From the NCBI GenBank assembly GCA_903830655.1, contig CAIKUQ010000044.1, positions 1-64,000 of the forward strand: DNA of 64,000 bases, given 5' to 3'. Shown in pieces: positions 2,582-45,611 of this stretch (its first letter is position 1; each line of letters opens with the position of its first letter). The DNA comes from an uncultured Actinomycetes bacterium (lineage in GTDB: Bacteria; Actinomycetota; Acidimicrobiia; Acidimicrobiales; RAAP-2). The translations under genes and the position numbers were made by a program. The notes beneath the pieces are model-generated. The model was not told the DNA's origin. It made no database searches and worked only from the letters and a program-made list of their open reading frames with translations.

Positions 2582-3811
2582 ATGTCCCCGACCAACTCTT
2601 CGCCGCGATCTTCTGGTCGTAATGGACGCCCAGCGCGCGCAAGCTCTGGTCGCCCGGGTCAGGGAGGGCGACCCTCCACTTTAGGTCGCAGCTCGAGCGC
2701 CCGTTCGGGTGGTCGCTCATCGTCAAGCCGTGAAGGATACGCCGCGCGATCTCCAGAGGACCGCCCTCGTCGGAATGCCGATGACTGGTCACGGGACTCG
2801 AGAGGTTCTTCGGGGCGGCCGTCTAGTGGTGGCCGCAAGCCAAGCGGAAAAGGCACTCGCGGCGCGGCGCGTTTTGAGCGAACTCTCTCTCCAGAGGAAC
2901 AGAAACGCGCGAGCCGATCAGAGTCCGCTAAGTCGAAGGGGTGGGGGTCGGTTGCTCGAAAGGGCGCTATTCATATTGATGCCTCTGGCGGTGAGATGGC
3001 TCACTCGCAAAATCCCGACCTAACTCCAGATCCATTATCCAAGTGGATTGAGAACACCAAGCCCACCGGCACGCGAGCAGACGGTGAACAAGACAAGAAG
3101 CCTGCGTTTGTTCTCCCCGCTGACATCGCTGCCGATATCCGCAAAGCGTTTGTTGGTACGGTCTACATGCGCGAGAAAATGGTCACGTCGCTCACCCGCG
3201 CGACAGAAGCGTACGGCCGCCATCGCTACGAAGAGGCGTTGCGCCTAGCGCGCAGAGTAACTGAAGCTGTCCCGGGCGTTGGTGCTGCACGGGAGCTCGC
3301 TGGCTTATCGGCCTATCGCTCGGAGCAATGGAACTTGGCCAAGGCGAATTTGATGGCCCACTTTGCTATCACGCAAGACCCGCAATATTTGCCCCTAGTA
3401 ATGGATTGTGATCGAGCGCACCGTCGGTATCGTGGAGTCGTAAAGACCTTTGGGCTGCTGGAAGGCGCTGACCCTTCGGCAGAAGTAGTCGCCGAGGCTC
3501 GCATTGTGATGGCTGGCACCCTCGCGGATCAACGCAAATATGAAGAGGCCATTGAGCTCTTGACGCGTGCAGGGGCCGCCAAAGTGCTTAAAAATCCCTC
3601 CTTCCGTCACATTCGGCTTTGGTACGCATTGGCCGATATCTACGATCAGGCGGGGGACCACTCCAGCGCTCGCGAACTCTTCGCGCGTGTCGTAAAGGCC
3701 GAACCCACGGCCTATGACGCAAAGTACCGTTTGCAAGAGTTGGGTACCGGCGCCGCACAAAAGAACAGGAAACGGCGCACGATTCCCGTTTCCAAGAAAA
3801 AGGTTGACTAG
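2582..3811 (+). CDS. TPR-repeat protein with an Arg/Ser/Gly-rich N-terminal tail
   Basis: 409 residues from ATG 2582, chosen over the in-frame ATG at 2546 because a TAGACT hexamer sits 8 bases upstream and no ribosome binding site serves either start. Residues about 1-100 are low-complexity and rich in Arg, Ser, Gly and Pro, likely disordered and strongly basic. The C-terminal half (about 180-395) is helical and fits tetratricopeptide repeats, e.g. YEEALRLARRVTEAVPG and YEEAIELLTRAGAAK. The end is again basic (KNRKRRTIPVSKKK). TPRs mediate protein contacts and the basic tail could bind nucleic acid, but the function is unknown. It is followed 31 bases later by the aldolase gene. Confidence 0.75.
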   Translation: MSPTNSSPRSSGRNGRPARASSGRPGQGGRPSTLGRSSSARSGGRSSSSREGYAARSPEDRPRRNADDWSRDSRGSSGRPSSGGRKPSGKGTRGAARFERTLSPEEQKRASRSESAKSKGWGSVARKGAIHIDASGGEMAHSQNPDLTPDPLSKWIENTKPTGTRADGEQDKKPAFVLPADIAADIRKAFVGTVYMREKMVTSLTRATEAYGRHRYEEALRLARRVTEAVPGVGAARELAGLSAYRSEQWNLAKANLMAHFAITQDPQYLPLVMDCDRAHRRYRGVVKTFGLLEGADPSAEVVAEARIVMAGTLADQRKYEEAIELLTRAGAAKVLKNPSFRHIRLWYALADIYDQAGDHSSARELFARVVKAEPTAYDAKYRLQELGTGAAQKNRKRRTIPVSKKKVD

Positions 3812-4892: not shown

Positions 4893-5493
4893 CTCGGCTG
4901 TTCCGGACGCTGGATGGCGTACGTGGGCGAATGCGATCACTATGGTTCGCTTGGCGTTTATCCCAGTCTTTTGGTGGTTATTGTTCGCAACGGGGCACCG
5001 AGCGGTAGCCGCGTGGTTGCTTGGAGTGCTGGGTGCCACCGATTGGATTGACGGATACGTCGCCAGGCGCCTAAACCAAGTGTCCACTATCGGAAAAGTC
5101 CTTGACCCGTCAGCGGACCGGCTGCTCACCGTTTCTGGCTTGGTGGGCGTGGCTGTCGCGGGGGGCGTGCCGTGGTGGTTTGCGGGGATCTGTCTCGTTC
5201 GAGAGATTCTCGTGATTTCGCTCACTTTGGCGCTGGCCTCGCTCGGGGCCGCACGAATTGACGTTCTGTGGTGGGGAAAGGTGTCCACTTTCGCACTACT
5301 CGCTACCTTCCCTCTCTTTTTACTCTCCTCTCAAGCCCACCACCTCCCGCTCCAGGGTTGGCAAACAGCATTACGAGCCATCACCTGGGTCGTGGGCCTA
5401 GCTGGTTTAGGGCTTTCTTGGGGCGTATTTTTCGGATACATTCGCCCGGCCCGCGAAGCGCTCTCCGCTGGGCGCCGGGGTCGCCAGGTTTAG
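4858..5493 (+). CDS. pgsA: CDP-diacylglycerol-glycerol-3-phosphate 3-phosphatidyltransferase (PgsA family)
   Basis: 211 residues. An integral membrane CDP-alcohol phosphatidyltransferase: the signature D-G-x2-A-R-x8-G-x3-D-x3-D is intact as [23 protein letters not shown] near residues 64-86. Four to six hydrophobic segments are visible (e.g. [33 protein letters not shown]). It would make phosphatidylglycerol phosphate, although family members using inositol phosphate or other alcohols cannot be excluded by motif alone. The start overlaps the aldolase 3' end; no better downstream start exists before the first membrane segment. Its place before gcvH matches the mycobacterial pgsA2-gcvH region. 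Confidence 0.85.
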
Positions 5494-5506
5494 TAAATTG
5501 GTACCT
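5494..5506 (+). promoter_or_regulatory. Candidate leaderless promoter of gcvH
   Basis: The AT-rich TAGTAAATT at 5491-5499 contains TAAATT ending 7 bases before ATG 5507. No Shine-Dalgarno sequence precedes the ATG. The element overlaps the pgsA stop codon (TAG 5491-5493). Confidence 0.45.
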
Positions 5507-5887
5507 ATGCAAATTCCCGCCGAACTTCACTATTCTTCCGACCACGAGTGGGCGAGGGCCGTTGATCTAGTTATCCGAATTGGCATCACCGACTACGCAC
5601 AAGACGCACTCGGAGATGTTGTGTTCGTGGACCTACCCAAGATCGGATCGTCGGTGGTTGCGGGAGGACAGGTCGGTGAAGTGGAATCCACTAAGTCGGT
5701 GTCTGAGATTTACGCGCCAGTGTCGGGTACGGTCACCGCTATTAACGAAGCCCTCAACGCCGCGCCCGAACTGCTCAACACTGCTCCGTACGAGGATGGC
5801 TGGATTTGTGAACTGACGGTCTCGTCACTCGATGACTTCAACGCCCTACTTTCCGCGGACGCGTACGCTCAATTGACGAACAATTAG
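5507..5887 (+). CDS. gcvH: Glycine cleavage system H protein
   Basis: 126 residues, normal family length. It carries the lipoyl arm that shuttles the aminomethyl group between P, T and L proteins. The lipoylated lysine is K63 in GEVESTKSVSEIYAPVSG, the canonical context and position. The N-terminus (HYSSDHEWAR) and DALGDVVFVDLP are typical. ATG 5507 is preferred to the in-frame TTG at 5498 because the protein then begins as other H proteins do. It lies 3 bases before the FHA gene; the T and P subunits are about 9 kb downstream on the same strand. Confidence 0.95.
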   Translation: MQIPAELHYSSDHEWARAVDLVIRIGITDYAQDALGDVVFVDLPKIGSSVVAGGQVGEVESTKSVSEIYAPVSGTVTAINEALNAAPELLNTAPYEDGWICELTVSSLDDFNALLSADAYAQLTNN

Positions 5888-5890
5888 TCA

Positions 5891-6358
5891 ATGATGAATT
5901 GTCGACGCTGCGGGGAAATACTAAACGCCAACGCAAATTTTTGTTGGAGCTGTGGAGCTAACCAGTCTGAATCGAGCGCGCCCGACACCCAAGCCGTTCC
6001 GGTCGTGAGCTTCCCCGAGGGATCGGCGCGTGGTGTTAATACCGGACCCAAGGGAAGTCACGGGGACGAGTTGGTGCTGGTGACTGGCCTCGAAGCGGGC
6101 ACACGTTTTGAGCTCGCCGCGAGCATTTCGAGTGCGGGTCGGGACGAAAAGTGTGAAATTCTGCTCGACGACATCTCGGTGTCCCGTATTCATGCGGAAT
6201 TTGCACGGACGGCGAATGGACGTATTGCGCTGCGTGACCTAAATTCTCTGAACGGTACTTACGTCAATGGATCGCGGGTGGAGTCAGCCACTCTTGGTTC
6301 GGGTGACGAGGTCCAAATCGGGAAATACAAATTGGTCTTTTGGGAGGCGTCGAAATGA
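5891..6358 (+). CDS. Zinc-ribbon FHA-domain protein (GarA-position homologue)
   Basis: 155 residues. The N-terminus has a CxxC...CxxC zinc ribbon (CRRCGEIL...CWSCGA, residues 4-22). A linker follows, then an FHA domain at about 75-152 with the phosphothreonine-binding signatures GRDEKCEILLDDISVSRIHAEF and LNSLNGTYVNG. Gene order gcvH-FHA-MerR-DUF151 equals the mycobacterial Rv1826-Rv1829 order, where the FHA protein is GarA, a regulator of glutamate and 2-oxoglutarate metabolism. Unlike GarA, no ETTS-like phospho-switch threonines are seen at the N-terminus; the zinc ribbon takes that place. Whether it has GarA function is inference. Start is ATG 5891 or 5894. The stop overlaps the next start (ATGA). 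Confidence 0.85.
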   Translation: MMNCRRCGEILNANANFCWSCGANQSESSAPDTQAVPVVSFPEGSARGVNTGPKGSHGDELVLVTGLEAGTRFELAASISSAGRDEKCEILLDDISVSRIHAEFARTANGRIALRDLNSLNGTYVNGSRVESATLGSGDEVQIGKYKLVFWEASK

Positions 6359-33831: not shown

Positions 33832-35439
33832 TTAGTGCTGTTTTAGACGATTTCTTTCAGCGGTTCGCTCAGCTTCCAGGCGTTCCAAGTCAATATCAGA
33901 GAAATCAACGTAGTTCATGGATTTAGCTATCGCATGGTGACCTGCGACTTCGTCCACGAGCCGAGCCATCTCATGGGCGACCCGCCGATAGCTTGGGTGG
34001 CCCTGGGGGCCGGATCGAAGTTCAATGAGATGTATCGCTTCGCGAGCATTCATCTGCATAACGTACCGAATTCGAAAAGCCAACGCAACGGCGTACTGGG
34101 CCTGTTCCGGAAACTCTTCATGGAGGTCATGGAATAAGGCGGCTGACCTTTGAAGTGATTCTTCGTACCGCTCCGCTAGCCCAGCTTCTCGGATGATGTC
34201 AGGGATGTCGTAGCCAAGTTCCACGGTGAGTGGCTGCCACTCAATGGTAAGCATTCGGTGACGCTGGAGGTCGCGAAAGGCACCATAGTCAGTGACGAGT
34301 TCAAAACGATAGTCAGTTCTCTCAAACGCACGTCCGGGTCGGTGACGACGGTTTCGACGCTCCCCCACGTAACTCTTCATTAACTCCGCACGCTGCTCGG
34401 GGTTCATTTTGGATACCGTTTGAGCTGCGCCAGCATGCGAAATCGTCGAATTAGCGAACACGATTGCTTCGAGGACAGCCTCCTCGCCACGAGGGTCAAA
34501 GCTGACTAGTCGAACGTATTCTGCTTCCTCGACCGGTTCATCCACCACCATGGATGCAACAATCTGTGATGTTGCACTCTTGGTGTCGCGCAGGTAGTCG
34601 GTCCACGCAATGCCGCGTTCGGCGACATTCACTCGCTTTAGGAATGAGGGAACGACCTTCACCAATTCCTCATACATGAGCTCGGCGTAGTTCCTGACCT
34701 CAGGGAGAGGATGTGCCCGCATGCGCAGGAGTAGCGACTCGTAGGCCTGCCCCGAAGCGTATATGCCAAGATTTGATAGAGCACTAGCGGGAAGAAGTCC
34801 ACGAACAGCATCGAGGGCCTTGGCGCGGATCGCTTGACGGTACACGAAGTCAGTGTCGGCGGGAGTCTTGGGGAATTTCTTACCGATGAAATCGATAAGT
34901 TCAGGGAGTAGCTCCCCGTACGTGTCAAACATACGGTCAATGTCACCAACATAACGAAGACCAAGCTTTGAGTTTGTTAAGTCGTGATCGCGATAGTAGC
35001 GATAGCGTCCGTCCGCAAAGCGCTTGTCGTACCCTAAGTACCGAGTTGATTGTTCGAGGTAACTCATGATGCGTCCCCACTCGAGAACTTTCGTCAAGAT
35101 ATTCGACGCTTGTTCACAGGCAAGATGGACACCGCCCAGTTGCGCCACTGAGTCATCGCCATATTCGTAGAAAATCTTTTGGTACAAGTCATCGGCTCGA
35201 TCTAGGCCGATTGTCGCATCGACGCTGATGTCGCCCTCCAGGTCGAGGTCGCCCACAAATTCATCGAGGAATAGGCGTCTTAGGCTTTTAGAGGATCGCG
35301 AGTAACGGGCGAATAGCGCGCCCTTGACCACCTCGGGAAGGTTGACGAGGGCAAAAACAGGCCCTTCGAGGTTGGTGAAGTAGCGGCGGAGTATGGCAAC
35401 TTCGGCTTCGGTGAAATCTTCGGCTACGTAGGCATGCAT
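33832..35439 (-). CDS. Tandem ThyX-like (FAD-dependent thymidylate synthase) protein
   Basis: 535 residues, about twice the length of ThyX. It contains two ThyX-like halves. Half 1 (about 60-260) has EYGDDSVAQLGGVHLACEQASN and GRIMSYLEQSTRY near 120-133; half 2 (about 310-520) has ANSTISHAGAAQ, FRDLQRHRMLTIEWQP near 388-400 and RYVMQMNAREAIHLIELRSGPQGHPSYR. ThyX normally has one RHRxxSxNExSxRY motif. Here RHR survives only in half 2 and the EQSTRY end only in half 1. This suggests a fused pseudo-dimer with a composite site, or a different flavin chemistry. It follows helY after 42 bases. Confidence 0.78.
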   Translation of the reverse strand: MHAYVAEDFTEAEVAILRRYFTNLEGPVFALVNLPEVVKGALFARYSRSSKSLRRLFLDEFVGDLDLEGDISVDATIGLDRADDLYQKIFYEYGDDSVAQLGGVHLACEQASNILTKVLEWGRIMSYLEQSTRYLGYDKRFADGRYRYYRDHDLTNSKLGLRYVGDIDRMFDTYGELLPELIDFIGKKFPKTPADTDFVYRQAIRAKALDAVRGLLPASALSNLGIYASGQAYESLLLRMRAHPLPEVRNYAELMYEELVKVVPSFLKRVNVAERGIAWTDYLRDTKSATSQIVASMVVDEPVEEAEYVRLVSFDPRGEEAVLEAIVFANSTISHAGAAQTVSKMNPEQRAELMKSYVGERRNRRHRPGRAFERTDYRFELVTDYGAFRDLQRHRMLTIEWQPLTVELGYDIPDIIREAGLAERYEESLQRSAALFHDLHEEFPEQAQYAVALAFRIRYVMQMNAREAIHLIELRSGPQGHPSYRRVAHEMARLVDEVAGHHAIAKSMNYVDFSDIDLERLEAERTAERNRLKQH

Positions 35440-35481: not shown

Positions 35482-37587
35482 TTAGAAGCCCGCGACTACT
35501 GAGCGTACGACCAGCTCTTTGGCCTCTTCGGCGTTAGCGGCCAGTTCTGGCACGTGTCGCATCCGGCTTAATTGTTCCAAGAGGTCACCCACCTGCTTTG
35601 CGTTACGGACGAAATCTCCTGGAGAGGTGTGTCCAATCTCCGCGTCGGCGAGATCCAGAACTACGCCTAACGTCGCCCCCCTGGCCCAGGCGGCAATGGT
35701 GGTTGCGAATCCATCATCGGGTTCCTTAGCGTGGGGAACACGGTGGCGAGCTTCGACTTCGGCGATGGTGGCGGCGGACATCGCGATCTCTAGGCTGCGT
35801 TCACGGAGATTGCCCCGACGCTCTTGCCCCAGACGGTCTTTGGAAGTAGCACGCTTTCTGGCCTGCACCTGCTTTGAAGCTAGAGGCTGCTTATTCCCCT
35901 TACGACCTTGGAAGGTGAAAACGGAGAGCAGTCCAGCCAATTGAGCAGGTTCGAGATTCTCGAGGACCCCGGCCGCAATCGTCTCGGCGATCAGTAAATC
36001 ATTTTCGTGATAAATCGAACGCAAGACTTGTCCCTGGGCATTCAATTTCCAACCCTCGGCATAACCAAGTTCGTCAAGAACCTTCCACCGAGCGGTCAGC
36101 TGCTCACTCAGGGGCCGTTTAGATCCACTTGGGCGGTGGTCTGCCTCGAACTGGGCGTAACTGCGCTGCATGACCTCGTGTGCGGTTTCCTGGTCGAAAT
36201 GATTCATCAAGTTCGCAGTGAAATTGTAGGTCGGTCGAAATGATGAGTGCAGATCTGATGGTGGCGCCAATGCGACCCGACCAACGTCAGAGAGCGACAA
36301 TTCAGGCGAGTAACAAATGACCGCGTGTCCCTCATCGTCTAGCCCCCGCCGACCAGCCCGACCGGTCATCTGCTTAAATTCCCCGGAAGTGAGAAAATTC
36401 CTCCCGGCATCGGAATATTTACTAAAGCGTTCTAGCGCGACCGAACGAGCGGGCATATTGACACCTAGGGCGAGAGTCTCGGTGGCGTAGACGACGCTAA
36501 GTAATCCGCGCTCGAAACATCTCTCCACGATCTCCCTGAAGGCTGGCACCATGCCGGCATGGTGTGCGGCGATTCCACGGCGTAGAGAGTCAAGAAATTC
36601 AGAGTATTCAAGCGCCTGCAGGTCCTCTCTCGAGAAATTGACGAGTCGATTCTCTGCGAGTTCGGAGATTTCACGGCGCTGTTCGGGTGTGGTGAAGAGC
36701 AAGCCATCTCGGCGAGCCTGACGAACAGCGTCGTCACACGCGGCTCGAGAGAAAATAAACACAATGACTGGTAAAAGGTTCTGATCCTCCATAGACATGA
36801 GTAACTCGCTACGACGAGGCGCGCGATACATTGGCGGTGGGGCGCTGCTCTTTGGACCATTCCATTTCGGTCCTGGTCGAAACTTACGAGTGTTCTTTGT
36901 GAGATTGTCAATCTTTCGGGCTTCTTCACTCAGACGCTCGCCGTCTAATAACTCGCCAATTTCAGCTGAGCCTTGTCCTCGGCGCAGAACCGCGTAGTGG
37001 TTGTGCAATTGAATCGGCCGAGTAATTTCAACCACGACGCTTGTTTCTCCCCTAATGCTTTCAAGCCACTGGCCTAGGAATTCGGCATTGCCAATGGTCG
37101 CCGAGAGAGCGACGAACTGCACGGCTCCTGGAGCGAGGATGAGGACCTCCTCCCACACTCCCCCTCTGAACGGGTCTTGCAAGTAGTGAACCTCGTCCAA
37201 GATGACGGTCCCTAGGTCGAATAATTGATCAGACTCGGTGAGGATCATGTTGCGGAGAACTTCAGTAGTCATCACCACTACCGACGCGGTGCGGTTAATG
37301 GACGTGTCGCCGGTGAGCAGGCCGACACTGCTTTCTCCATATATTGAAGCGAGTTCGTTATATTTCTGGTTGGACAGAGCCTTGAGAGGTGTCGTATAGA
37401 AAGACCGCTTCTCGCTTTCGATAGTTCGCCCAATTGCATAGTTCGCCACAAGGGTCTTGCCCGATCCTGTCGGAGCGCTCACCAGAACATTTACATCGCG
37501 GTCAATCGCCTCAATGGCCTCGAGTTGGAATCGGTCTAAGCCAAATCCCAACGAGTCAACAAACCGTTTTCGATAGTCGACGCTCAT
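35482..37587 (-). CDS. helY: Ski2-like DEAD/DEAH-box RNA helicase HelY
   Basis: 701 residues. Superfamily 2 helicase: Walker A SAPTGSGKTLVAN near 38-50, DEVH box VILDEVHYLQDP near 130, SAT motif ALSATIGNAEFL near 160, and GRAGRRGLDDEGHAV near 405. Mycobacterial HelY is about 900 residues; this one is shorter, ending in a helical C-terminal region with WKVLDELGYAEGWKLN. It probably acts in RNA turnover. It overlaps tatC by 4 bases (ATGA). The order pafA...tatA/B-tatC-helY is the mycobacterial order. Confidence 0.9.
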   Translation of the reverse strand: MSVDYRKRFVDSLGFGLDRFQLEAIEAIDRDVNVLVSAPTGSGKTLVANYAIGRTIESEKRSFYTTPLKALSNQKYNELASIYGESSVGLLTGDTSINRTASVVVMTTEVLRNMILTESDQLFDLGTVILDEVHYLQDPFRGGVWEEVLILAPGAVQFVALSATIGNAEFLGQWLESIRGETSVVVEITRPIQLHNHYAVLRRGQGSAEIGELLDGERLSEEARKIDNLTKNTRKFRPGPKWNGPKSSAPPPMYRAPRRSELLMSMEDQNLLPVIVFIFSRAACDDAVRQARRDGLLFTTPEQRREISELAENRLVNFSREDLQALEYSEFLDSLRRGIAAHHAGMVPAFREIVERCFERGLLSVVYATETLALGVNMPARSVALERFSKYSDAGRNFLTSGEFKQMTGRAGRRGLDDEGHAVICYSPELSLSDVGRVALAPPSDLHSSFRPTYNFTANLMNHFDQETAHEVMQRSYAQFEADHRPSGSKRPLSEQLTARWKVLDELGYAEGWKLNAQGQVLRSIYHENDLLIAETIAAGVLENLEPAQLAGLLSVFTFQGRKGNKQPLASKQVQARKRATSKDRLGQERRGNLRERSLEIAMSAATIAEVEARHRVPHAKEPDDGFATTIAAWARGATLGVVLDLADAEIGHTSPGDFVRNAKQVGDLLEQLSRMRHVPELAANAEEAKELVVRSVVAGF

Positions 37588-38315
37588 CTCTTGCCGAACA
37601 ATCGAGCAACGGCGATGGCTAAGAAGTAGAACAAGGCGAGGGGCAGACCGAGGGCCAACATTGAGAGTGGGTCGCCACTAGGCGTAATAAGAGCCGAAGC
37701 GATGGTGATCAAAATGATTGCGTACCGCCATTGTTTTAAGAGGGTCTTGGGGGTGACCAGTTCGGCTAGCTGCAATGCCACCAAGACGACTGGAAACTCG
37801 AATGTCAAGCCAAAAGCAACGAGCATCAAGATAAACAAGTCGATGTATTCATTGGGGCTGTAGTAAGTCGTCAGTTGACTCCCGCCGACGTTTTGTAACC
37901 AGGTGATGGCCGCGCTGAAGCTGAAGTAGGCAACCACTGCACCCAACGCGAAGAAAACGAGCGACGCGGTCACAAAGCCGAGCGAATAGGCCCGCTCCTT
38001 GGCCTTGAGACCGGGAGTGATGAAACGCCACGTGTGCCATAAAATGAATGGCAGGGAAACGAGCAGCGCAAAATACACCGATACTTTTACGCGTATTGAT
38101 AAGCCAGTCAATGGGTTAGTGACCAGGAAATTGCAATGTTTCGGTGAAACTTTGCAATACGGGTGTTGGAGGAAATTCAAGATGTGCGGGTAGAAGACAA
38201 AGCCAATCACTACGCCAACTACCAATACCAACAGCACCCGAAAAAATCTTGATCGAAGCTCTCGGAGGTGTTCAGCTAGCGGCATAGGGCCAACCCGTGA
38301 GCGGAACTTAAACAT
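37584..38315 (-). CDS. tatC: Sec-independent protein translocase TatC
   Basis: 243 residues with six membrane segments. Signatures: MPLAEHLRELRSRFFRV at the N-terminus with the conserved glutamate near 15-18, and FVTASLVFFALGAVVAYFSF, TFEFPVVLVALQLAELVTPKTL further on. It is the twin-arginine signal receptor in the membrane. It begins 2 bases after the tatB stop and overlaps helY, so the trio is translationally linked. Confidence 0.94.
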   Translation of the reverse strand: MFKFRSRVGPMPLAEHLRELRSRFFRVLLVLVVGVVIGFVFYPHILNFLQHPYCKVSPKHCNFLVTNPLTGLSIRVKVSVYFALLVSLPFILWHTWRFITPGLKAKERAYSLGFVTASLVFFALGAVVAYFSFSAAITWLQNVGGSQLTTYYSPNEYIDLFILMLVAFGLTFEFPVVLVALQLAELVTPKTLLKQWRYAIILITIASALITPSGDPLSMLALGLPLALFYFLAIAVARLFGKR

Positions 38316-38317
38316 GG

Positions 38318-38680
38318 TCAGTTAAGCCCGGGATCGAACGAAGGATCAGTGGGCTTCCTTGTCTCGGGGGTTTGCTTCATAATCGGAACTTCGTCTTTGT
38401 CCACGAACGGCGCGTCGGACTCAGCGAGCTCGGCGTTAGCCCGCTCGGCGAGGTTGTCAAGGAGCGATCGAGGTCGTCGTGCAAATTTTCCTAAGGCTTC
38501 AGTTGAAGGGAGGTTAGGAATGACCTCACGTACTTCGCCCTCGATACGTTGTTGCCACAACTTAAATGCTGCCCAGAACCGCCCGACTTTTTGAGCTGCT
38601 TCAGGCAACTTGTCAGGACCAAGAAATATCACAACCACGACGAGGATAATAAAAAGTTTGATTGCGCTTAGATTGAACAC
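38318..38680 (-). CDS. tatB: Twin-arginine translocase TatB/TatA-type subunit
   Basis: 120 residues from GTG 38680. A single N-terminal membrane helix (IKLFIILVVVVIFLGPDKLPEAAQKVGRFW) with the GPDKLPE hinge is typical of TatA/B. The longer, charged helical tail, together with a Glu in the hinge (LPEAAQ), favours TatB over TatA. It forms the Tat complex with TatC. A hexamer TAAGAT lies 6 bases upstream. No separate TatA is in the window. Confidence 0.85.
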   Translation of the reverse strand: MFNLSAIKLFIILVVVVIFLGPDKLPEAAQKVGRFWAAFKLWQQRIEGEVREVIPNLPSTEALGKFARRPRSLLDNLAERANAELAESDAPFVDKDEVPIMKQTPETRKPTDPSFDPGLN

Positions 38681-38692
38681 AGCGCCATCTTA
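38681..38692 (-). promoter_or_regulatory. Candidate leaderless promoter of tatB
   Basis: TAAGAT (minus strand 38692-38687) lies exactly 6 bases before GTG 38680, in the 25-base gap after lepB. Confidence 0.45.
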
Positions 38693-38705
38693 GAATCCGT
38701 TTTGA

Positions 38706-39299
38706 TTAAAACCAGCCGAGCCGGTTGAATGGCCATATTCGAACAAATGCCTTGCCGATTATTAGTGACTTCTGCACGGTTCCCCAATATCGTGAATCAC
38801 AACTGTTGTTGTGGTTGTCGCCCATTACGAAATAGTTGTTGGGCTTGACCGTAGTCGGATTGATTGCGGGGCCTAAAGGCTCGAGGTGGCTCCAGGCCTC
38901 AATCAAAGGTTTTCCATTGACATAAATGGTGTTTCCTTGTGACGAGAGCCGGTCCCCGGGAAGTCCAATTACACGCTTGACCAGATCGACGACGGGCTCG
39001 CCACCACAGTTCTCGGTTGCCGGCGCCTTAAAGACGACAATATCTCCACGATTAATGGACCCAAAGTCGACGGCTAACTTGTCCACGACAATGCGGTCAC
39101 CGATCAACAACGTCGGCTCCATTGAACCTGATGGGATGTAGAACGTTTGGAATATGAATGTTCGAATCACCAATGAAGCCACGAGGGCGACAAGTACGAT
39201 GACCACCCACTCACGCATGAGTCTGGATTTATGGTGCTTGGGGCCCAATAAACGCGCGGTCCAACCTGGTGTCGGCTCATGAGTTTCGTAACCGAACAT
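38706..39299 (-). CDS. lepB: Signal peptidase I
   Basis: 197 residues. One N-terminal membrane segment (WVVIVLVALVASLVIRTFIF, 31-50). The catalytic serine is S59 in YIPSGSMEPTL and the lysine is K108 in DLVKRVIGLPGD, followed by GDNHNNSCDSRYWG of box E. It removes signal peptides from exported proteins. Its -10 hexamer overlaps the pafA stop codon, so it may be transcribed separately from the Pup genes upstream. In mycobacteria the corresponding space holds pafB and pafC, which are absent here. Confidence 0.94.
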   Translation of the reverse strand: MFGYETHEPTPGWTARLLGPKHHKSRLMREWVVIVLVALVASLVIRTFIFQTFYIPSGSMEPTLLIGDRIVVDKLAVDFGSINRGDIVVFKAPATENCGGEPVVDLVKRVIGLPGDRLSSQGNTIYVNGKPLIEAWSHLEPLGPAINPTTVKPNNYFVMGDNHNNSCDSRYWGTVQKSLIIGKAFVRIWPFNRLGWF

Positions 39300-39311
39300 A
39301 CATACAGCCTA
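39300..39311 (-). promoter_or_regulatory. Candidate leaderless promoter of lepB
   Basis: TAGGCT (minus strand 39311-39306) lies exactly 6 bases before the ATG at 39299. Its first three bases are the TAG stop of pafA. Confidence 0.55.
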
Positions 39312-40688
39312 GTCGAGGCTGGGTCTGCGTTCGATGGAGGTCAGTAGCTTTTCAAAACGCTCATCAGTGGTTTTGAATGGATCTTTTAATAACACAGTTC
39401 TTTGCATTTCATCGTTCAACTTTAAATGGACCCAATCGACCGTAAAGTCACGTCGATTTTCTTTCGCCTTGCGAATGAAGGCGCCGCGCATGCGTGCGCG
39501 GGTTGTTTCCGGAGGTTCGGTAGTGGCGGTCTTGACCTGCACATCGTTCACGACTCTTCGCATGAGCCCCTTATCTGCAAGTTGGTAATAGAGCCCTCTT
39601 GAAGCGTTGGTGTCGTGATAGAGCATGTCTAATAAAGCGAGCCTTGGGGAGTCAATGGTTAGGTTGTTTCGGCTCGCTGAACGTTCAATGATTTGCAGCT
39701 TGGCTATCCAATCCACTCGATCCGCGAGCTCCAATGGGTTGCGTTGGTAGGTTTCCAGAATTTCTCTCCAAAGAACGATGGCCGCCTTTTGATCAGTAGG
39801 GAGTTCGTGAGTCGAAGCAAAGAGTTCAGCTCTCTCGAGAATGTCTGATTGAATTTCCACCGCGGTCATGGACCGTCCATTAGCGAGGGAGATCGGGGTC
39901 TCACTCCATAGGTCATAACTCATCTCTCGCAACGCGGCAATGGGCGATGTCAGCGTGAGGTCACGTAGGACCGTTGACCTATCTTCGATCATCGCCAAAA
40001 CAACAGCTGCCGTCGCGACCTTCATATATGTCGCAAACTCGCTCATATTTGAGTCACCGACAATTACGTGCAGCCGGCGGTACCGTTCCGGGTCGGCGTG
40101 TGGCTCGTCGCGCGTATTGATTATCGGTCGTGAGCGCGTCGTCGCTGACGAAATGGATTCCCAGATGTGCTCGCCTCTTTGCGTCATTGAATAGCGACTG
40201 CCTTGCGGTCCAGCGACTATTTTGCCTGCGCCAGCGAAGATTGAGCGCGTAATCAAGAACGGGATAAACACCTGTTCGAAGCGGCTGAGGTCTTCGACGC
40301 GCTCTATGCAGTAATTCTCGTGGCAGCCGTAGCTATTCCCAGAGGAGTCGGTGTTGTTCTTAAAGAGATAAATCTCGCCTTGGTGGCCTTCATCTTGCAA
40401 CTGTTCCTGGGCGTACGCCACGAGTTCTCGCAGGATAAGTTCACCCGCCTTGTCTTGAGCCACGACATCAGTGAGCAAGTCGCACTCCGCGGTGGCGTAC
40501 TCCGGGTGTGAGCCAACGTCTAGGTAGAGGCGGCTACCGTTCTCGAGGAACACGTTGGACGAACGTCCCCACGAAACGACTTTACGGAAAAGGTACCTCG
40601 AGATGTCGTCCGGGCTTAGGCGACGTTGTCCGCGGTAGTTGAAGGTAATGCCGTATTCGGTCTCGATGCCAAAGACCCGCCGTAGCAT
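39309..40688 (-). CDS. pafA: Pup-protein ligase PafA
   Basis: 459 residues, normal for PafA. It couples the C-terminal glutamate of Pup to lysines of target proteins with ATP. The glutamine-synthetase-like fold shows GIETEYGITF near residue 8, ENGSRLYLDVGSHPEYATAECD near 48, KNNTDSSGNSYGCHENY near 105 and NTRDEPHADPERYRRLHVIVGD near 190. The Dop-specific loop after GIETEYG is absent, which separates it from the paralogue at 42367. It begins 9 bases after the prcA stop. Confidence 0.95.
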   Translation of the reverse strand: MLRRVFGIETEYGITFNYRGQRRLSPDDISRYLFRKVVSWGRSSNVFLENGSRLYLDVGSHPEYATAECDLLTDVVAQDKAGELILRELVAYAQEQLQDEGHQGEIYLFKNNTDSSGNSYGCHENYCIERVEDLSRFEQVFIPFLITRSIFAGAGKIVAGPQGSRYSMTQRGEHIWESISSATTRSRPIINTRDEPHADPERYRRLHVIVGDSNMSEFATYMKVATAAVVLAMIEDRSTVLRDLTLTSPIAALREMSYDLWSETPISLANGRSMTAVEIQSDILERAELFASTHELPTDQKAAIVLWREILETYQRNPLELADRVDWIAKLQIIERSASRNNLTIDSPRLALLDMLYHDTNASRGLYYQLADKGLMRRVVNDVQVKTATTEPPETTRARMRGAFIRKAKENRRDFTVDWVHLKLNDEMQRTVLLKDPFKTTDERFEKLLTSIERRPSLD

Positions 40689-40697
40689 TGGCTAGAC

Positions 40698-41375
40698 CTA
40701 ACTGAGCAATTCGCGAACGCGGTCATCGCTGAGGCGTTGGAAGGTACGGCGCGAGCCCTTGTCTTCGAGGATTCCGACTTCTAAATCTTCTACCGCTAGG
40801 GTTCGGTCTGGCCCAGTCAGGGCCAGCACAGCACTCTTTACCGTTTCGACTAGAGAAGTCACAGAACTAGTAGTGAGAGCGAACCGCCTCTTCACCTCTT
40901 CTGCTTCACCACCCACGACCGCAAAAAGAGGTTCGTCAGAGATTGTGCCTTCGTACGCGACTCGGTAGATCTTGGTGGGACGAAGCTCGTTACCCAACTG
41001 AGAGACCAAAATTTCCACTTCGAGCGGCTTCATGCCCTCTGAGAAAACATCCCCAATGTGCTGCGCGTAAAAATTGGCTAGTGCCCGAGCATCTACGTCT
41101 TCACGCGAGTACACGTAACCGGTGTTATCCGCCCAGCGAATTCCAGCCTCGCGGAGGCGGTCGAACTCGTTGTATTTGCCTACCCCAGCAAACGCGATAC
41201 GGTCATAGATTTCCGAAATCTTATTTAGAGATGCGGACGTGTTCTCCCCGAGCATCAGCACGCCTTGGTCGTAGATGGCTGCGATGATTGACTTGCCACG
41301 TGAAATACCCTTTTGGGCGAACTGGGCTTTGTCGTTAACGAGTTGTTCTGGATTGACGTAGAAAGAATTACTCAT
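40698..41375 (-). CDS. prcA: 20S proteasome alpha subunit
   Basis: 225 residues. ISRGKSIIAAIYDQGVLMLGEN near residue 24 and the helical FYVNPEQLVNDKAQFAQKG at the N-terminus are typical of bacterial alpha subunits, whose termini gate the chamber. It lacks a catalytic threonine, as expected. The gene overlaps prcB by 4 bases (ATGA) and has GGGGGG as ribosome binding site. Confidence 0.93.
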   Translation of the reverse strand: MSNSFYVNPEQLVNDKAQFAQKGISRGKSIIAAIYDQGVLMLGENTSASLNKISEIYDRIAFAGVGKYNEFDRLREAGIRWADNTGYVYSREDVDARALANFYAQHIGDVFSEGMKPLEVEILVSQLGNELRPTKIYRVAYEGTISDEPLFAVVGGEAEEVKRRFALTTSSVTSLVETVKSAVLALTGPDRTLAVEDLEVGILEDKGSRRTFQRLSDDRVRELLS

Positions 41376-42166
41376 CGAAGTTGCCCCCCAGCGATTCCTC
41401 GCGATTCGGCGCGTCGGTCGTTAATACGACGGAAACGCTCTCCAACAGCGTCGCCCTCTATCTCCTGGAAACCATCTTTGGTCAAAGTCACCATAATTGG
41501 GTATATGTGTCGAACGAAATCTGGCCCTCCGGTACTGGGATCGTTGTCGCCCGCTTCGTAGAGAGCCAGCGCGGCGAGCTCGAGAGCTTCTTCTAAATCC
41601 AAGTCGGGCCTAAACCCTAAACGCAACGCTCCTTCGGCGAATTGAGTGCCGGAGCCAATTACGTTGAAGTCTGAGCGCTCGTAACAGCCTCCGGCGCCGT
41701 CATATTCAAAAATACGCCCAGTGTTGTGATTGGGATCGAAGCCGGCCAACATCGGCACCACGTACAGCGGTGAGTTGAAATTGTTGTTTTGGATGATTGG
41801 AGAAAGGAAATTGGCCTTTCCTTCGAGACTGAGAATGGATGAGGTCATTTTTTCGTAGTGTTCGAATGATAATTGCGCGATACGAATAAATTGGATGCCT
41901 CTCGCCGCTGAACCGGAGATGGCCATTGCGGTGAAACGATCGGCAGCTTCAATCTTACGGATGTCTCGACTGGCAACGTAGGCCGCGGTGGCCTGTCTAT
42001 CAGCAACCATCACCACACCTTGGTTGCATCGCACCGCAATAACGGTCGTCGCGTGGGCCTGCTCGTCCATGGCGCCCTGACCGAATGGCTGGTGCCCAAC
42101 CGATTGCATGTACTCAAAGAAATTTGGACCAGGGTCAGTCATCGAATTAAAGAGTGGAAGCCCCAT
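41372..42166 (-). CDS. prcB: 20S proteasome beta subunit (catalytic)
   Basis: 264 residues from the ATG at 42166, which overlaps the pup stop (TGATG); GTG 42169 is possible. The propeptide is about 39 residues and the N-terminal nucleophile of the mature chain is T40 in EQAHATTVIAV. Mature-chain Asp is D17 (MVADRQ). The catalytic lysine falls at position 32 rather than 33 because one residue is missing in the loop before RDIRK. The residue before the cut is Ala instead of the usual Gly. Proteolysis of pupylated proteins is expected. Confidence 0.94.
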   Translation of the reverse strand: MGLPLFNSMTDPGPNFFEYMQSVGHQPFGQGAMDEQAHATTVIAVRCNQGVVMVADRQATAAYVASRDIRKIEAADRFTAMAISGSAARGIQFIRIAQLSFEHYEKMTSSILSLEGKANFLSPIIQNNNFNSPLYVVPMLAGFDPNHNTGRIFEYDGAGGCYERSDFNVIGSGTQFAEGALRLGFRPDLDLEEALELAALALYEAGDNDPSTGGPDFVRHIYPIMVTLTKDGFQEIEGDAVGERFRRINDRRAESRGIAGGQLR

Positions 42167-42360
42167 CACTCCCCACCCTTTTGCACGTAACTACGGACAA
42201 ACTCCTCCGCGTTCTCTTCTAAAACACTGTCAATTTCATCCAGCAGCTCATCGAGGTCGGCTTTGAGTTTCTCGGATTTCGCCCCAGTGGAAGTCTCGGC
42301 TTCTTGAGTCGCCTCTGACCGCTCGGTGCGCTGCTTTTGGATTCGTTCTTGTTCGCTCAC
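42166..42360 (-). CDS. pup: Prokaryotic ubiquitin-like protein Pup
   Basis: 64 residues from GTG 42360. The C-terminus is Gly-Gly-Glu (VQKGGE), so it can be ligated by PafA without prior deamidation. Actinobacterial Pups often end in GGQ. The N-terminal half is Gln/Glu/Arg-rich and disordered; residues about 27-55 ([20 protein letters not shown]) form the helix that binds the ATPase coiled coil. It lies 6 bases after dop and overlaps prcB. Confidence 0.96.
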
Positions 42361-42366
42361 TAATTT

Positions 42367-43872
42367 CTACCTATTCAATCGTTCGAGGAACTCCTCGGCG
42401 GTCGCGCTCTCGTCGAAGAGCTTCTCCGTGAGGTCTTTAGTTCCCCTTGTAGGGTCCATCATAGGAACTCGATGTAGTGCCCCGTCCTCCAGGTCGAAAA
42501 CCACGGAATCCCAATTTGCTGAGGAGATATTCTCTGGGAATCGCCTGACGCACTCACCACGGAAATAGGCCCTGGTGTCAGCGGGGGGCTCGTGCATAGC
42601 GTTACGAACCTCTATAAGCTCGCACAGGCGAATGAGCCCGGCTCGTTGCGCCAGAGACTTCTCAGGGCGCAAGTCATGGTATTGCAAAGCGATGGCCCCA
42701 AGGCGTGGTGAGAGTGGCGTGAGATCATGTCGCTCTTGAAAGCCGATGATCATTCGATATTTTGCGAGCCAATCAATCCGATCTGAGACAACATCCGGGT
42801 TATTGGCGATTCCGTCGAGAAGTTCGCGCCACTGCTCCATGATGAGAGTGATCTCCTGGGCTTCAGCAACAGCTACTCCCCCGGTCTGGTCGACAAAATG
42901 TTGCGCCAGTTGCCAGAGTTGGTCTTGGTACTCCCAGCTCGAAACGCGCATGCCATTCTCATCCTCTACGAAAACGGTCGAGAGACCGGAATGCACCCAC
43001 GACAAGTCTTGGGCGTAGGCGCGCATTGCACGCACCGGGGCGGCCGGAGGAGAAGGAAACACTGTGGGTCCAAATTCTTCCAGAGCGGCTAATAACAATG
43101 CGGTCGAACCAAGTTTGACGAACGTCGCAACTTGGCTCATGTTCGCGTCCCCGTTAATCACGTGTAAACGCCTGAAGCGCTCTGCATCGGCATGAGGCTC
43201 ATCACGAGTGTTCACAATCGGACGCTTCATGGTGGTCTCGAGGCCGACAATCTCCTCAAAAAATTCTGAACGTTGGCTCAGCTGGAATTCGCCTGGTTCA
43301 CGGCCGCCCCACTCGGTCTCTGCGCCAACTTTGCCGGCCCCAAATAGCAATTGTCGCGATACGAAATGAGGAACCATTGCTCGGACAATGTCGTCGAAAG
43401 GAACCTCACGGCTCACTAGAAAATTCTCGTGAGTGCCGTACGAATTCCCTTTGCCGTCGGAGTTGTTCTTATACAAAGTGATGTGGTCGTTTTCGTCGAG
43501 AGAACTGTTTGCCGCCTTTTGCGCCTCCAGCATGATTTCCTCTCCCGCAACGTCGTACAGCGTTGCCTGGAGTGGAGTACGACACTCAGGTGCAGAGTAT
43601 TCCGGGTGCGCATGGTCGACATAGAGACGTGCTCCGTTGGTCAAAACAGTATTCGCGACCGTTTTCTCAACGATTGGGGCAAATTGGAGATGCCCACGTA
43701 CGCCTCGAGCGTCAATCTCTGGATGCTCCGCCTCGAAATCCCACTTGATCAAATATTGTTGCAGCCGGGCGTAAGCGGTGACCACCAAACTCGAAGCAAG
43801 AATTGGGTCATTCTCTGGTCCGCCCGCAATTCCGTATTCGGTTTCAATACCAAGGATTTTCTCAATGGCCAT
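42367..43872 (-). CDS. dop: Depupylase/deamidase Dop
   Basis: 501 residues. Paralogue of PafA with GIETEYGIAGGPENDPILASS; the insertion after GIETEYG is the Dop loop. NSYGTHENFLVSREV near 150 and NTRDEPHADAERFRRLHVINGD near 225 match. It removes Pup from substrates. Because Pup here already ends in Glu, its deamidase activity appears unnecessary for the encoded Pup, so depupylation is the likely role. Starts 2 bases after the Mpa stop. Confidence 0.94.
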   Translation of the reverse strand: MAIEKILGIETEYGIAGGPENDPILASSLVVTAYARLQQYLIKWDFEAEHPEIDARGVRGHLQFAPIVEKTVANTVLTNGARLYVDHAHPEYSAPECRTPLQATLYDVAGEEIMLEAQKAANSSLDENDHITLYKNNSDGKGNSYGTHENFLVSREVPFDDIVRAMVPHFVSRQLLFGAGKVGAETEWGGREPGEFQLSQRSEFFEEIVGLETTMKRPIVNTRDEPHADAERFRRLHVINGDANMSQVATFVKLGSTALLLAALEEFGPTVFPSPPAAPVRAMRAYAQDLSWVHSGLSTVFVEDENGMRVSSWEYQDQLWQLAQHFVDQTGGVAVAEAQEITLIMEQWRELLDGIANNPDVVSDRIDWLAKYRMIIGFQERHDLTPLSPRLGAIALQYHDLRPEKSLAQRAGLIRLCELIEVRNAMHEPPADTRAYFRGECVRRFPENISSANWDSVVFDLEDGALHRVPMMDPTRGTKDLTEKLFDESATAEEFLERLNR

Positions 43873-43874
43873 AG

Positions 43875-45611
43875 TTACAGGTATTGCCCAGTCCCTACTG
43901 CGTGAATCGATCTACCACCATTGGCATCGTGCTCTTCTCGATTAACGAGCGTACGTATAAAAATGATTCGCTCACCCTTCTTGCCCGAGATTCTGGCCCA
44001 ATCGTCAGGATTAGTGGTGTTGGGCAGGTCCTCGTTTTCACGATACTCCTGGCGAATTGAGTCAAGGAAGTCCTCGACACACAGACCTCGCTCACCCTGA
44101 GAAATTTCTCGCTTCACGGCACGCTTCTTCGCGCGACGTACAATATTTTCGATCATTGCACCCGACGCGAAGTCCTTAAAGTACAGCACCTCTTTGTCAC
44201 CACCTTGGTAGGTGACCTCTAAGAATCGATTCTCATCATCAATGCGGTACATGGCCTCAACGGTCTGTTCGATCATGGCCCTAACAGCCTTGTCGCGTTC
44301 GCCTCCTCCGAGGCCGGCTACTTCGGAGGCCGCGAGGGGTAGATCGGCTGTCAAGTACCGTTCGAAAATCTGCTGCGCCGCTTCGGCGTTGGGACGTTCG
44401 ATTTTGATCTTTACGTCCAGCCGTCCGGGGCGCAATATGGCCGGGTCAATCAAGTCTTCTCGATTAGTCGCGCCGATAACGATGACGTCTCGAAGCGACT
44501 CCACACCGTCAATCTCAGCGAGAAGCTGGGGCACGATTGTCGATTCCATGTCCGAGCTGATGCCAGTTCCTCGGGTCCGAAAGAGTGAGTCCATTTCGTC
44601 GAAAAACACTATTACTGGGACACCCTCTTCGGCCTTCTCGCGTGCTCGTTGGAAGACCACCCGAATCTGGCGCTCAGTCTCGCCGACGTATTTGTTCAAG
44701 AGTTCCGGCCCCTTGATGTTTAAAAAGTAAGAACGAACATTCCGGTTACCGGTCAATTCGGCGACCTTCTGAGAGAGTGAATGGGCTACCGCCTTGGCGA
44801 TGAGAGTCTTGCCGCAACCTGGAGGCCCGTAAAGGAGTATTCCCTTCGGAGCGGGCAGGCTGTAGTCCTGAAACAAAGCCCTGTGCAGGTAGGGCAACTC
44901 AACGGCGTCGGTGATTGCTTCAATTTGAGCATCCAATCCACCAACATCGGCGTACGAGATGTCTGGTACCTCTTCGAGAATTAGGTCCTCGGCCTCTTGG
45001 CGAACGAGCCGCTCGGTCAACAAATTCGAGCGCGTATCCAGCAGCAGAGCATCACCAGCGTGCAGCTTGACCAGTTGCAGGTTTTCGGCCATCTCCACCA
45101 CGCGCTCTTCGTCTGCCCTGCCGTACACCAATACGCGCCGCTCGTCTAAAACCTCTTTCACGTTGACAACTTCACCTTGGCCATCAGATCCACGATGTCC
45201 AATGACGGCGAATGATTCATTGAGAACAACTTCGTCTCCTCGAGCCATCGTGGCGACCGAGATCGTGGGCGCGAGCGCCACTCTCATCTTGCGCCCGTTA
45301 GCCAAGATGTCGACAGTTCCATCGGCATTGTCAGCAACGAATGTGCCATACACCGCTGGCGGTTGCGATAGTTTCTCAACCTCTTGGCGAAGTGAGTTGA
45401 GGTGGTCTCGAGTTTGTGCGACGGTGTACGCCAACTTTTCATTGTTGGACTTAGCTTGGGCCAAGGCTGACCGTGACTCGAGCAACTTCTCCTCTAGGCG
45501 CTCAATGCGAGCATTGGCCTGATCGATATCCCGTAGGACGAAGTCTTCGGGCCCCCCGATGGAAATAATCCCTTCCTCGGCCTCGTTCGACTTGTCGTGT
45601 TCAGCAGTCAT
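43875..45611 (-). CDS. mpa: Proteasome-associated AAA ATPase (ARC/Mpa)
   Basis: 578 residues. N-terminal coiled coil (about 25-80: [20 protein letters not shown]) binds Pup, then OB domains, then one AAA+ module with Walker [14 protein letters not shown] near 262 and Walker [14 protein letters not shown] near 330. The C-terminus ends GTGQYL, the Gln-Tyr-Leu motif that docks on the 20S alpha ring and opens its gate. It unfolds pupylated proteins. First gene of the proteasome block; a strong promoter lies at 45612-45646. Confidence 0.96.

Follow-up and report, generated by a model that had tools for sequence, protein, structure and literature searches.

The closest described relatives of the protein analyzed here are the canonical flavin-dependent thymidylate synthases (ThyX or FDTS; T. 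maritima TM0449). According to PMC6514825, one active site of M. tuberculosis ThyX is built by three subunits, of which subunit A gives R95-H96-R97 and R199, subunit B gives S71 and R190, and subunit C gives R87, S105, R107 and Y108. In T. maritima, R78, E86 and S88 touch one and the same reduced flavin (PMC11940539). The residue correspondence between the two enzymes used throughout is our own, established by spacing. Since each residue appears four times in the symmetric tetramer, the ThyX site is hard to dissect. The protein described below resembles canonical ThyX in having a Thy1 domain in each half and the ThyX fold in the second half, in the presence of most of the active-site residues, spread over the two halves, and in being seldom found alongside ThyA or DHFR. 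However, it differs in its length (535 residues versus about 220), in its split signature motif and in scoring below the cut-off of TIGR02170.

Two other known groups are close. Thermus thermophilus Thy1 (6j61), the first Foldseek hit of our model, also has the ThyX fold with an addition but, going by its title, it consists of one Thy1 plus an extra C-terminal domain, with chains of about 240 residues. The phage cluster PHROG 36506, annotated as “thymidylate synthase” (491 positions), was matched by the window protein (P0001), by the Parabacteroides and Tunturi_5 proteins introduced below and by two members from viral contigs. The halves of the window protein match different parts of it (59-199 and 352-475), which suggests that this cluster represents the double family in phages, although it was made by clustering and its listing is silent on two halves or a split site. 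A parallel for such an arrangement is found in the herpesvirus-type monomeric dUTPase, where an oligomeric enzyme exists as a duplicated, fused chain and the motifs of a single site are distributed over the two halves. Its fold and reaction are unrelated to ThyX, and the analogy is one of mechanism only. Within the literature searched, mostly outside the subscription journals, we found no description of a double ThyX architecture or of a split site.

Two Thy1 domains in one gene

The window, i.e., the whole stretch of 64,000 nucleotides that was analyzed, contains the following gene, made of two halves that we refer to as H1 and H2.

33832..35439, minus strand: double-length Thy1 (ThyX-like) gene, 535 aa, ATG start, stop codon included; Pfam Thy1 122.3 bits
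34555..35439, minus strand: half 1 (H1), residues 1-295; Thy1 51.7 bits; hhalign against canonical ThyX E 1.1e-10
33835..34542, minus strand: half 2 (H2), residues 300-535; Thy1 68.2 bits; hhalign against canonical ThyX E 9.9e-14

The original prediction of a double-length ThyX-like protein with two halves was borne out by the profile searches. The Thy1 domain (PF02511) was found twice in the protein, the score of the whole lying far above the Pfam gathering cut-off of 24.8 bits, and each half also passed it alone (H1 over 34645-35202 and H2 over 33943-34416). Each half aligns well with canonical ThyX, while the direct hhalign comparison of H1 with H2 was weak (E 0.0082). With the single sequence, phmmer found no ThyX in the PDB, and a profile search of the PDB gave ThyX entries at weak E-values only (best 0.019). 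The NCBI equivalog model for ThyX, TIGR02170, gave 47.5 bits versus a cut-off of 87.9. Judging by its sequence, the protein is a member of the Thy1 superfamily that is probably ThyX-like in its working, and not a canonical ThyX.

The AlphaFold2 model of the full protein (66 homologues) had a mean pLDDT of 83.5 and a pTM of 0.83, with values of pLDDT under 50 at residues 70-79 and 94-102. Residues 305-515 of H2 matched the T. maritima ThyX fold with Z 16.2 and an rmsd of 2.4 over 192 residues, at 17–18% identity. H1 predicted alone gave a poor model (pLDDT 68.6) for which no match to a ThyX chain reached Z 5; the best ThyX row of this low-confidence model (Z 4.9, rmsd 9.5) was tied with unrelated helical proteins. 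The H1 strands at 104-112, 127-131 and 220-228 are present in the full model and missing in the isolated one, a weak indication that H1 may need H2 for folding.

Active-site residues are divided between the halves

We compared the protein residue by residue with 157 close homologues (no two with the same core; 151 clusters at 95% identity) and with 17 distant ones (L203-L211, L219-L226), i.e., nine viral contigs and eight of the bacterial, plasmid and phage records described below. Four of these 17 (L203, L219-L221) are 46–50% identical to the window protein. The segments that contain counterparts of canonical active-site residues, together with one family-specific motif, are the following.

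35140..35160, minus strand: G94-DDSVAQ-100 in H1, counterpart of canonical GHxSxxE
35038..35079, minus strand: W121-GRIMSYLEQSTRY-134 in H1, degenerate RHR followed by intact ExSxRY; counterparts of E86, S88, R90 and Y91
34789..34803, minus strand: R213-GLLP in H1, counterpart of canonical R147-x-x-LP; R213 in 157/157 close and 17/17 distant members
34255..34290, minus strand: D384-YGAFRDLQRHR-395 in H2, intact RHR, after which TIEWQ replaces SxNExSxRY
34015..34050, minus strand: N464-AREAIHLIELR-475 in H2, counterparts of R165 and R174 being R466 and R475
33985..34002, minus strand: G480-HPSYR-485 in H2, family-specific motif, largely kept in close and distant members

The signature motif had been predicted to be split, with EQSTRY in the first half and RHR in the second, and this is what we found: EQSTRY occupies E129-Y134 of H1 (residues 121-134 are WGRIMSYLEQSTRY) and RHR occupies R393-R395 of H2 (residues 391-406 are LQRHRMLTIEWQPLTV). 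In the canonical proteins RHRxxSx(6)RY is contiguous and whole (13/13), whereas in the double family it is divided between the halves. The H1 region G94-Y134 aligns without gaps to GHxSxxEH...RHR...SxRY of 13/13 canonical ThyX from the same phylum, with z from 4.9 to 6.6 and, in each comparison, 0/2000 shuffles as good.

Conservation follows the same division. In H1, the four residues of the C loop (E129, S131, R133 and Y134) were present in all 157 close members. In H2, R393 and H394 were found in 174/174 and R395 in 172/174, R475 was also kept in 174/174, and R466 was kept in all the close members, with R or K in 12/17 of the distant ones. At the positions that would complete each half, other residues are found. 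The counterparts of E, S, R and Y in H2 are mostly W, P, T/S/G and P/V/T. The RHR counterpart in H1 of the 157 close members starts with W (115), R (39) or H (3), followed by G and then R, and the R174 position in H1 is M or L, with an Arg one position on (241) in 139/157. The loss of the subunit A set from H1 is therefore not total, as shown by the first Arg of RHR in 39/157 and by the possible R174-like Arg 241. In the GHxSxxE counterpart, the positions of H53, T55 and E58 are D95, S97 and Q100; D and Q are found at the first and last of these in 157/157 close members, and the distant ones have H at the H53 position in 12/17 and E at the E58 position in 10/17.

Compared with the roles named in PMC6514825, H2 holds 4/4 of the subunit A residues, and H1 holds 3/4 of the subunit C residues and one of the two subunit B residues. 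The missing subunit C residue is R87, whose counterpart in H1 is N in 146/157 close members and R in 2/17 distant ones; T. maritima ThyX, in our alignment, likewise has no Arg at this position. With the A residues in H2 and three of the four C residues in H1, one complete site, by these published roles, would need both halves. Both sets of residues were intact in 157/157 close members (and in all 151 clusters) and in 14/17 distant ones, the exceptions being L210, at one C position, and L222 and L223, with RHN for RHR. The reverse arrangement, i.e., RHR in H1 or SxRY in H2, was found in 0/174 members. This consistency, together with the absence of any reverse case, argues that the split is not due to chance.

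The same data bear on the idea that H2 alone is catalytic and H1 a structural or regulatory pseudo-domain. H2 does have the higher Thy1 score and an evident ThyX fold, but ExSxRY and the R147-type Arg are lost from H2 and are exactly the residues that are invariant in H1, and we regard this explanation as very unlikely.

A probable composite active site

We consider it likely that the protein is a flavin-dependent thymidylate synthase in which two fused ThyX copies divide the active-site work. Two copies of ThyX would have been fused, and the work at the active site shared out afterwards. H2 would supply the FAD-holding RHR triad (R393-H394-R395) and the R174-type Arg (R475), while H1 would supply the dUMP-side loop (E129, S131, R133 and the lid Y134) and the R147-type Arg (R213), to which the H1 of most distant members would add the GHxSxxE segment. 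A ThyX-like pseudo-tetramer would form from two chains and contain two complete sites and two dead ones, each live site probably consisting of one H2 and the H1 of both chains, where we infer that the separated motifs meet. The enzyme would use methylene-tetrahydrofolate and FAD to turn dUMP into dTMP. This reaction would yield tetrahydrofolate, so that DHFR would be unneeded for this step.

Going by the residues, the layout that we prefer has H2 as subunit A and two H1s as subunits B and C, so that a homodimer would have two live sites and two dead ones, but the evidence for the B role is mixed. The same enzyme could be laid out in another way, the live site being formed by the H2 of both chains, one of them in the subunit B role, and one H1, which implies H2s pairing with H2s around two flavins. 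The B-role R190 is indeed kept in H2 (R466, in 157/157 close members), and the corresponding position in H1 is Q (Q231) in 156/157. However, S71, the second B-role residue, has its counterpart in H1 and not in H2 (S97 in 173/174 members, including 157/157 close ones), and the H1 of 10/17 distant members has R at the R190 position, mostly together with GHxSVAE. We consider this second layout somewhat unlikely.

The suggestion that the fusion builds a single asymmetric composite site was supported, with one correction. A composite and asymmetric site is favored by the partition of the residues and by the genome content presented below, but under our preferred layout it would not be a single one, as the homodimer would contain two live sites besides two dead ones. 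The dead sites of the bacterial proteins may not be idle either, since their positions are strongly kept in the close members (G122 in 154, R123 in 157, W401 in 152 and Q402 in 156 of the 157). These residues are mostly absent from the distant members. A new role of the dead sites in bacteria, if there is one, may be the binding of NADPH or folate or the control of the live sites.

Thymidylate synthases and DHFR in the same genomes

The window had been said to contain no other thymidylate synthase. This holds, and could be widened to the whole assembly (1.40 Mb, 94.9% complete), in which a search for thyA or a normal thyX found neither, i.e., no second PF02511 gene and no PF00303 match. A thymidine kinase match is present in this genome. 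Among 61 genomes (the source genome included), 52 had no PF00303 match at all. A short ThyA-like gene was found in the other nine (G001, G004, G006, G008, G009, G028, G032, G033 and G034; loci L033-L038), eight of which also hold the double gene; G033 does not. The four of these genes that were checked are related to the methanogen-type TIGR03283, with 77–101 bits versus a cut-off of 174.55; one of these genes is that of G033.

We also analyzed a sample of 149 genomes of the phylum, 47 of which carry the double protein. These have two Thy1 matches each (four in G099, with two double genes; places listed in part), which leaves no room for another ThyX. A flavin-dependent thymidylate synthase is expected in genomes that have neither ThyA nor its DHFR. 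In agreement, a ThyA match of any score and a DHFR match (PF00186 type) were found in only one of the 47 genomes, G188. There the ThyA match is a fragment of 74 positions located on the same contig (C181) as the DHFR, and we read it as a stray contig. In total, DHFR was found in 15/149 genomes. These are the 13/13 whose ThyA match is strong (at least 251 bits), G188, and G081, where the DHFR match is weak. The 26 genomes with low-scoring PF00303 matches were also without PF00186. As DHFR is absent from nearly all the other genomes too, its absence fits a ThyX-type enzyme but is not a proof of it. Seven of the 47 double genomes consist of a single contig (G042, G076, G137, G139, G172, G177 and G180), and none of these had a ThyA or a DHFR match; G076, G139, G177 and G180 had no thymidine kinase match either. 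Overall, the genome content fits a ThyX-type enzyme.

The original prediction had left room for a changed function. The protein might methylate another pyrimidine or bind nucleotides and make no dTMP, thymidylate then coming from salvage or from an enzyme that we did not see. The missed TIGR02170 cut-off and the thymidine kinase match of the source genome would agree with this, as would the Streptomyces UMP/dUMP methylase PolB, which has the ThyX fold and another substrate (by the title of the structure match), and a large viral contig in which an adenylosuccinate synthetase homolog lies close to the double gene. However, the FAD- and dUMP-side residues are invariant in 157/157 close members, no strong ThyA, DHFR or canonical ThyX match accompanies the double gene, and four single-contig genomes with the double gene are without ThyA, DHFR and thymidine kinase matches altogether. 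We take a changed function to be unlikely, and the evidence favors the composite thymidylate synthase site instead.

Distribution and evolution of the double protein

The double protein was matched in 58 of the 61 genomes, being missing in G022, G033 and G036, and the Thy1 matches were found in the same 58. In the collection of named genomes there were at least 80 loci among 571 relatives, many with the titles Acidimicrobiaceae, Acidimicrobiales, Acidimicrobiia or Ilumatobacter. Over the class, 214/246 genomes (≥90% complete) had a match and 32/246 did not. Of the 57 matches in the phylum sample, 47 are whole double proteins or large portions of them, and the remaining 10 are short canonical ThyX. 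A random fusion, or a degraded and functionless gene of one lineage, would hardly be present across relatives, phylum sample and class with its active-site residues kept, and is so very unlikely as to be nearly negligible.

Other observations were made in these genomes. The double ThyX was not matched in a genus of the same class with genomes of about 1 Mb (f88/g198; G209, G213, G218 and others). Two genomes have two complete double-ThyX genes each (G029, on contigs C36 and C45, and G099, on contigs C71 and C5). A third kind of Thy1 gene was found at L214-L217 (in G110, G098, G069 and G134), with one weak Thy1 match (59/60-190) in ORFs of 302–451 aa. We considered that these might be lone halves but rejected it, as neither half's profile matched them (best E 0.24) and the canonical profile did so weakly.

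Farther away, members in Miltoncostaea (Thermoleophilia), Euzebya (Nitriliruptoria) and Parabacteroides distasonis showed 46–47% identity, those of Paenibacillus and Bacillus plasmids 24–26%, those of phages of Tunturiibacter, Microcystis and Vibrio 22–35% over the aligned part, and the nine viral contigs 26–50%. The double protein spans Actinomycetota, Parabacteroides, plasmids of Bacillota and phages. In public annotation, the plasmid-borne members appear as FAD-dependent thymidylate synthase and some of the phage ones as thymidylate synthase.

The double gene has a dCTP deaminase among its neighbors in Euzebya, and a dUTPase and a dCMP deaminase in phage Tunturi_5, which fit a role as thymidylate synthase. 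The viral neighbor proteins gave little pathway context, with any Pfam match in 3/10. In the viral contig L207 (376,674 bases) the double ThyX, at 2608-3789, lies near an adenylosuccinate synthetase homolog at 4983-6305; the PurZ-like enzymes of modified-adenine phages belong to the adenylosuccinate synthetase family. Upstream of the gene in the window, on the same strand (35482-45611), we found a DSHCT/DEAD helicase, TatC and a Pup ligase. Farther upstream are ORFs that resemble subunits of the 20S proteasome, another Pup-ligase-like protein and a proteasomal ATPase.

A tree of 65 rows (26 H1, 26 H2 and 13 canonical ThyX), unrooted, with SH-aLRT as the sole support measure and several long branches, placed all the H1s in one group (SH-aLRT 100) and all the H2s in another (95), both apart from the 13 canonical proteins. 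This is as expected from one fusion that took place before the spread of the family.

Implications for the family

ThyX is an essential enzyme that is absent from humans and has been proposed as an antimicrobial target. In the double protein the flavin-side and dUMP-side residues are naturally separated, so that each could be mutated alone and disputed steps of ThyX chemistry would become directly testable. Rather speculatively, the family could be an ancient and separate branch of flavin thymidylate synthases, shared by bacteria and phages, with a flavin-holding H2 and a dUMP-holding H1 and, in bacteria, dead sites that have perhaps acquired a new role. In most of the sampled genomes of a large class of environmental bacteria, the double protein seems to serve as the main thymidylate synthase, and some phages carry it as well.
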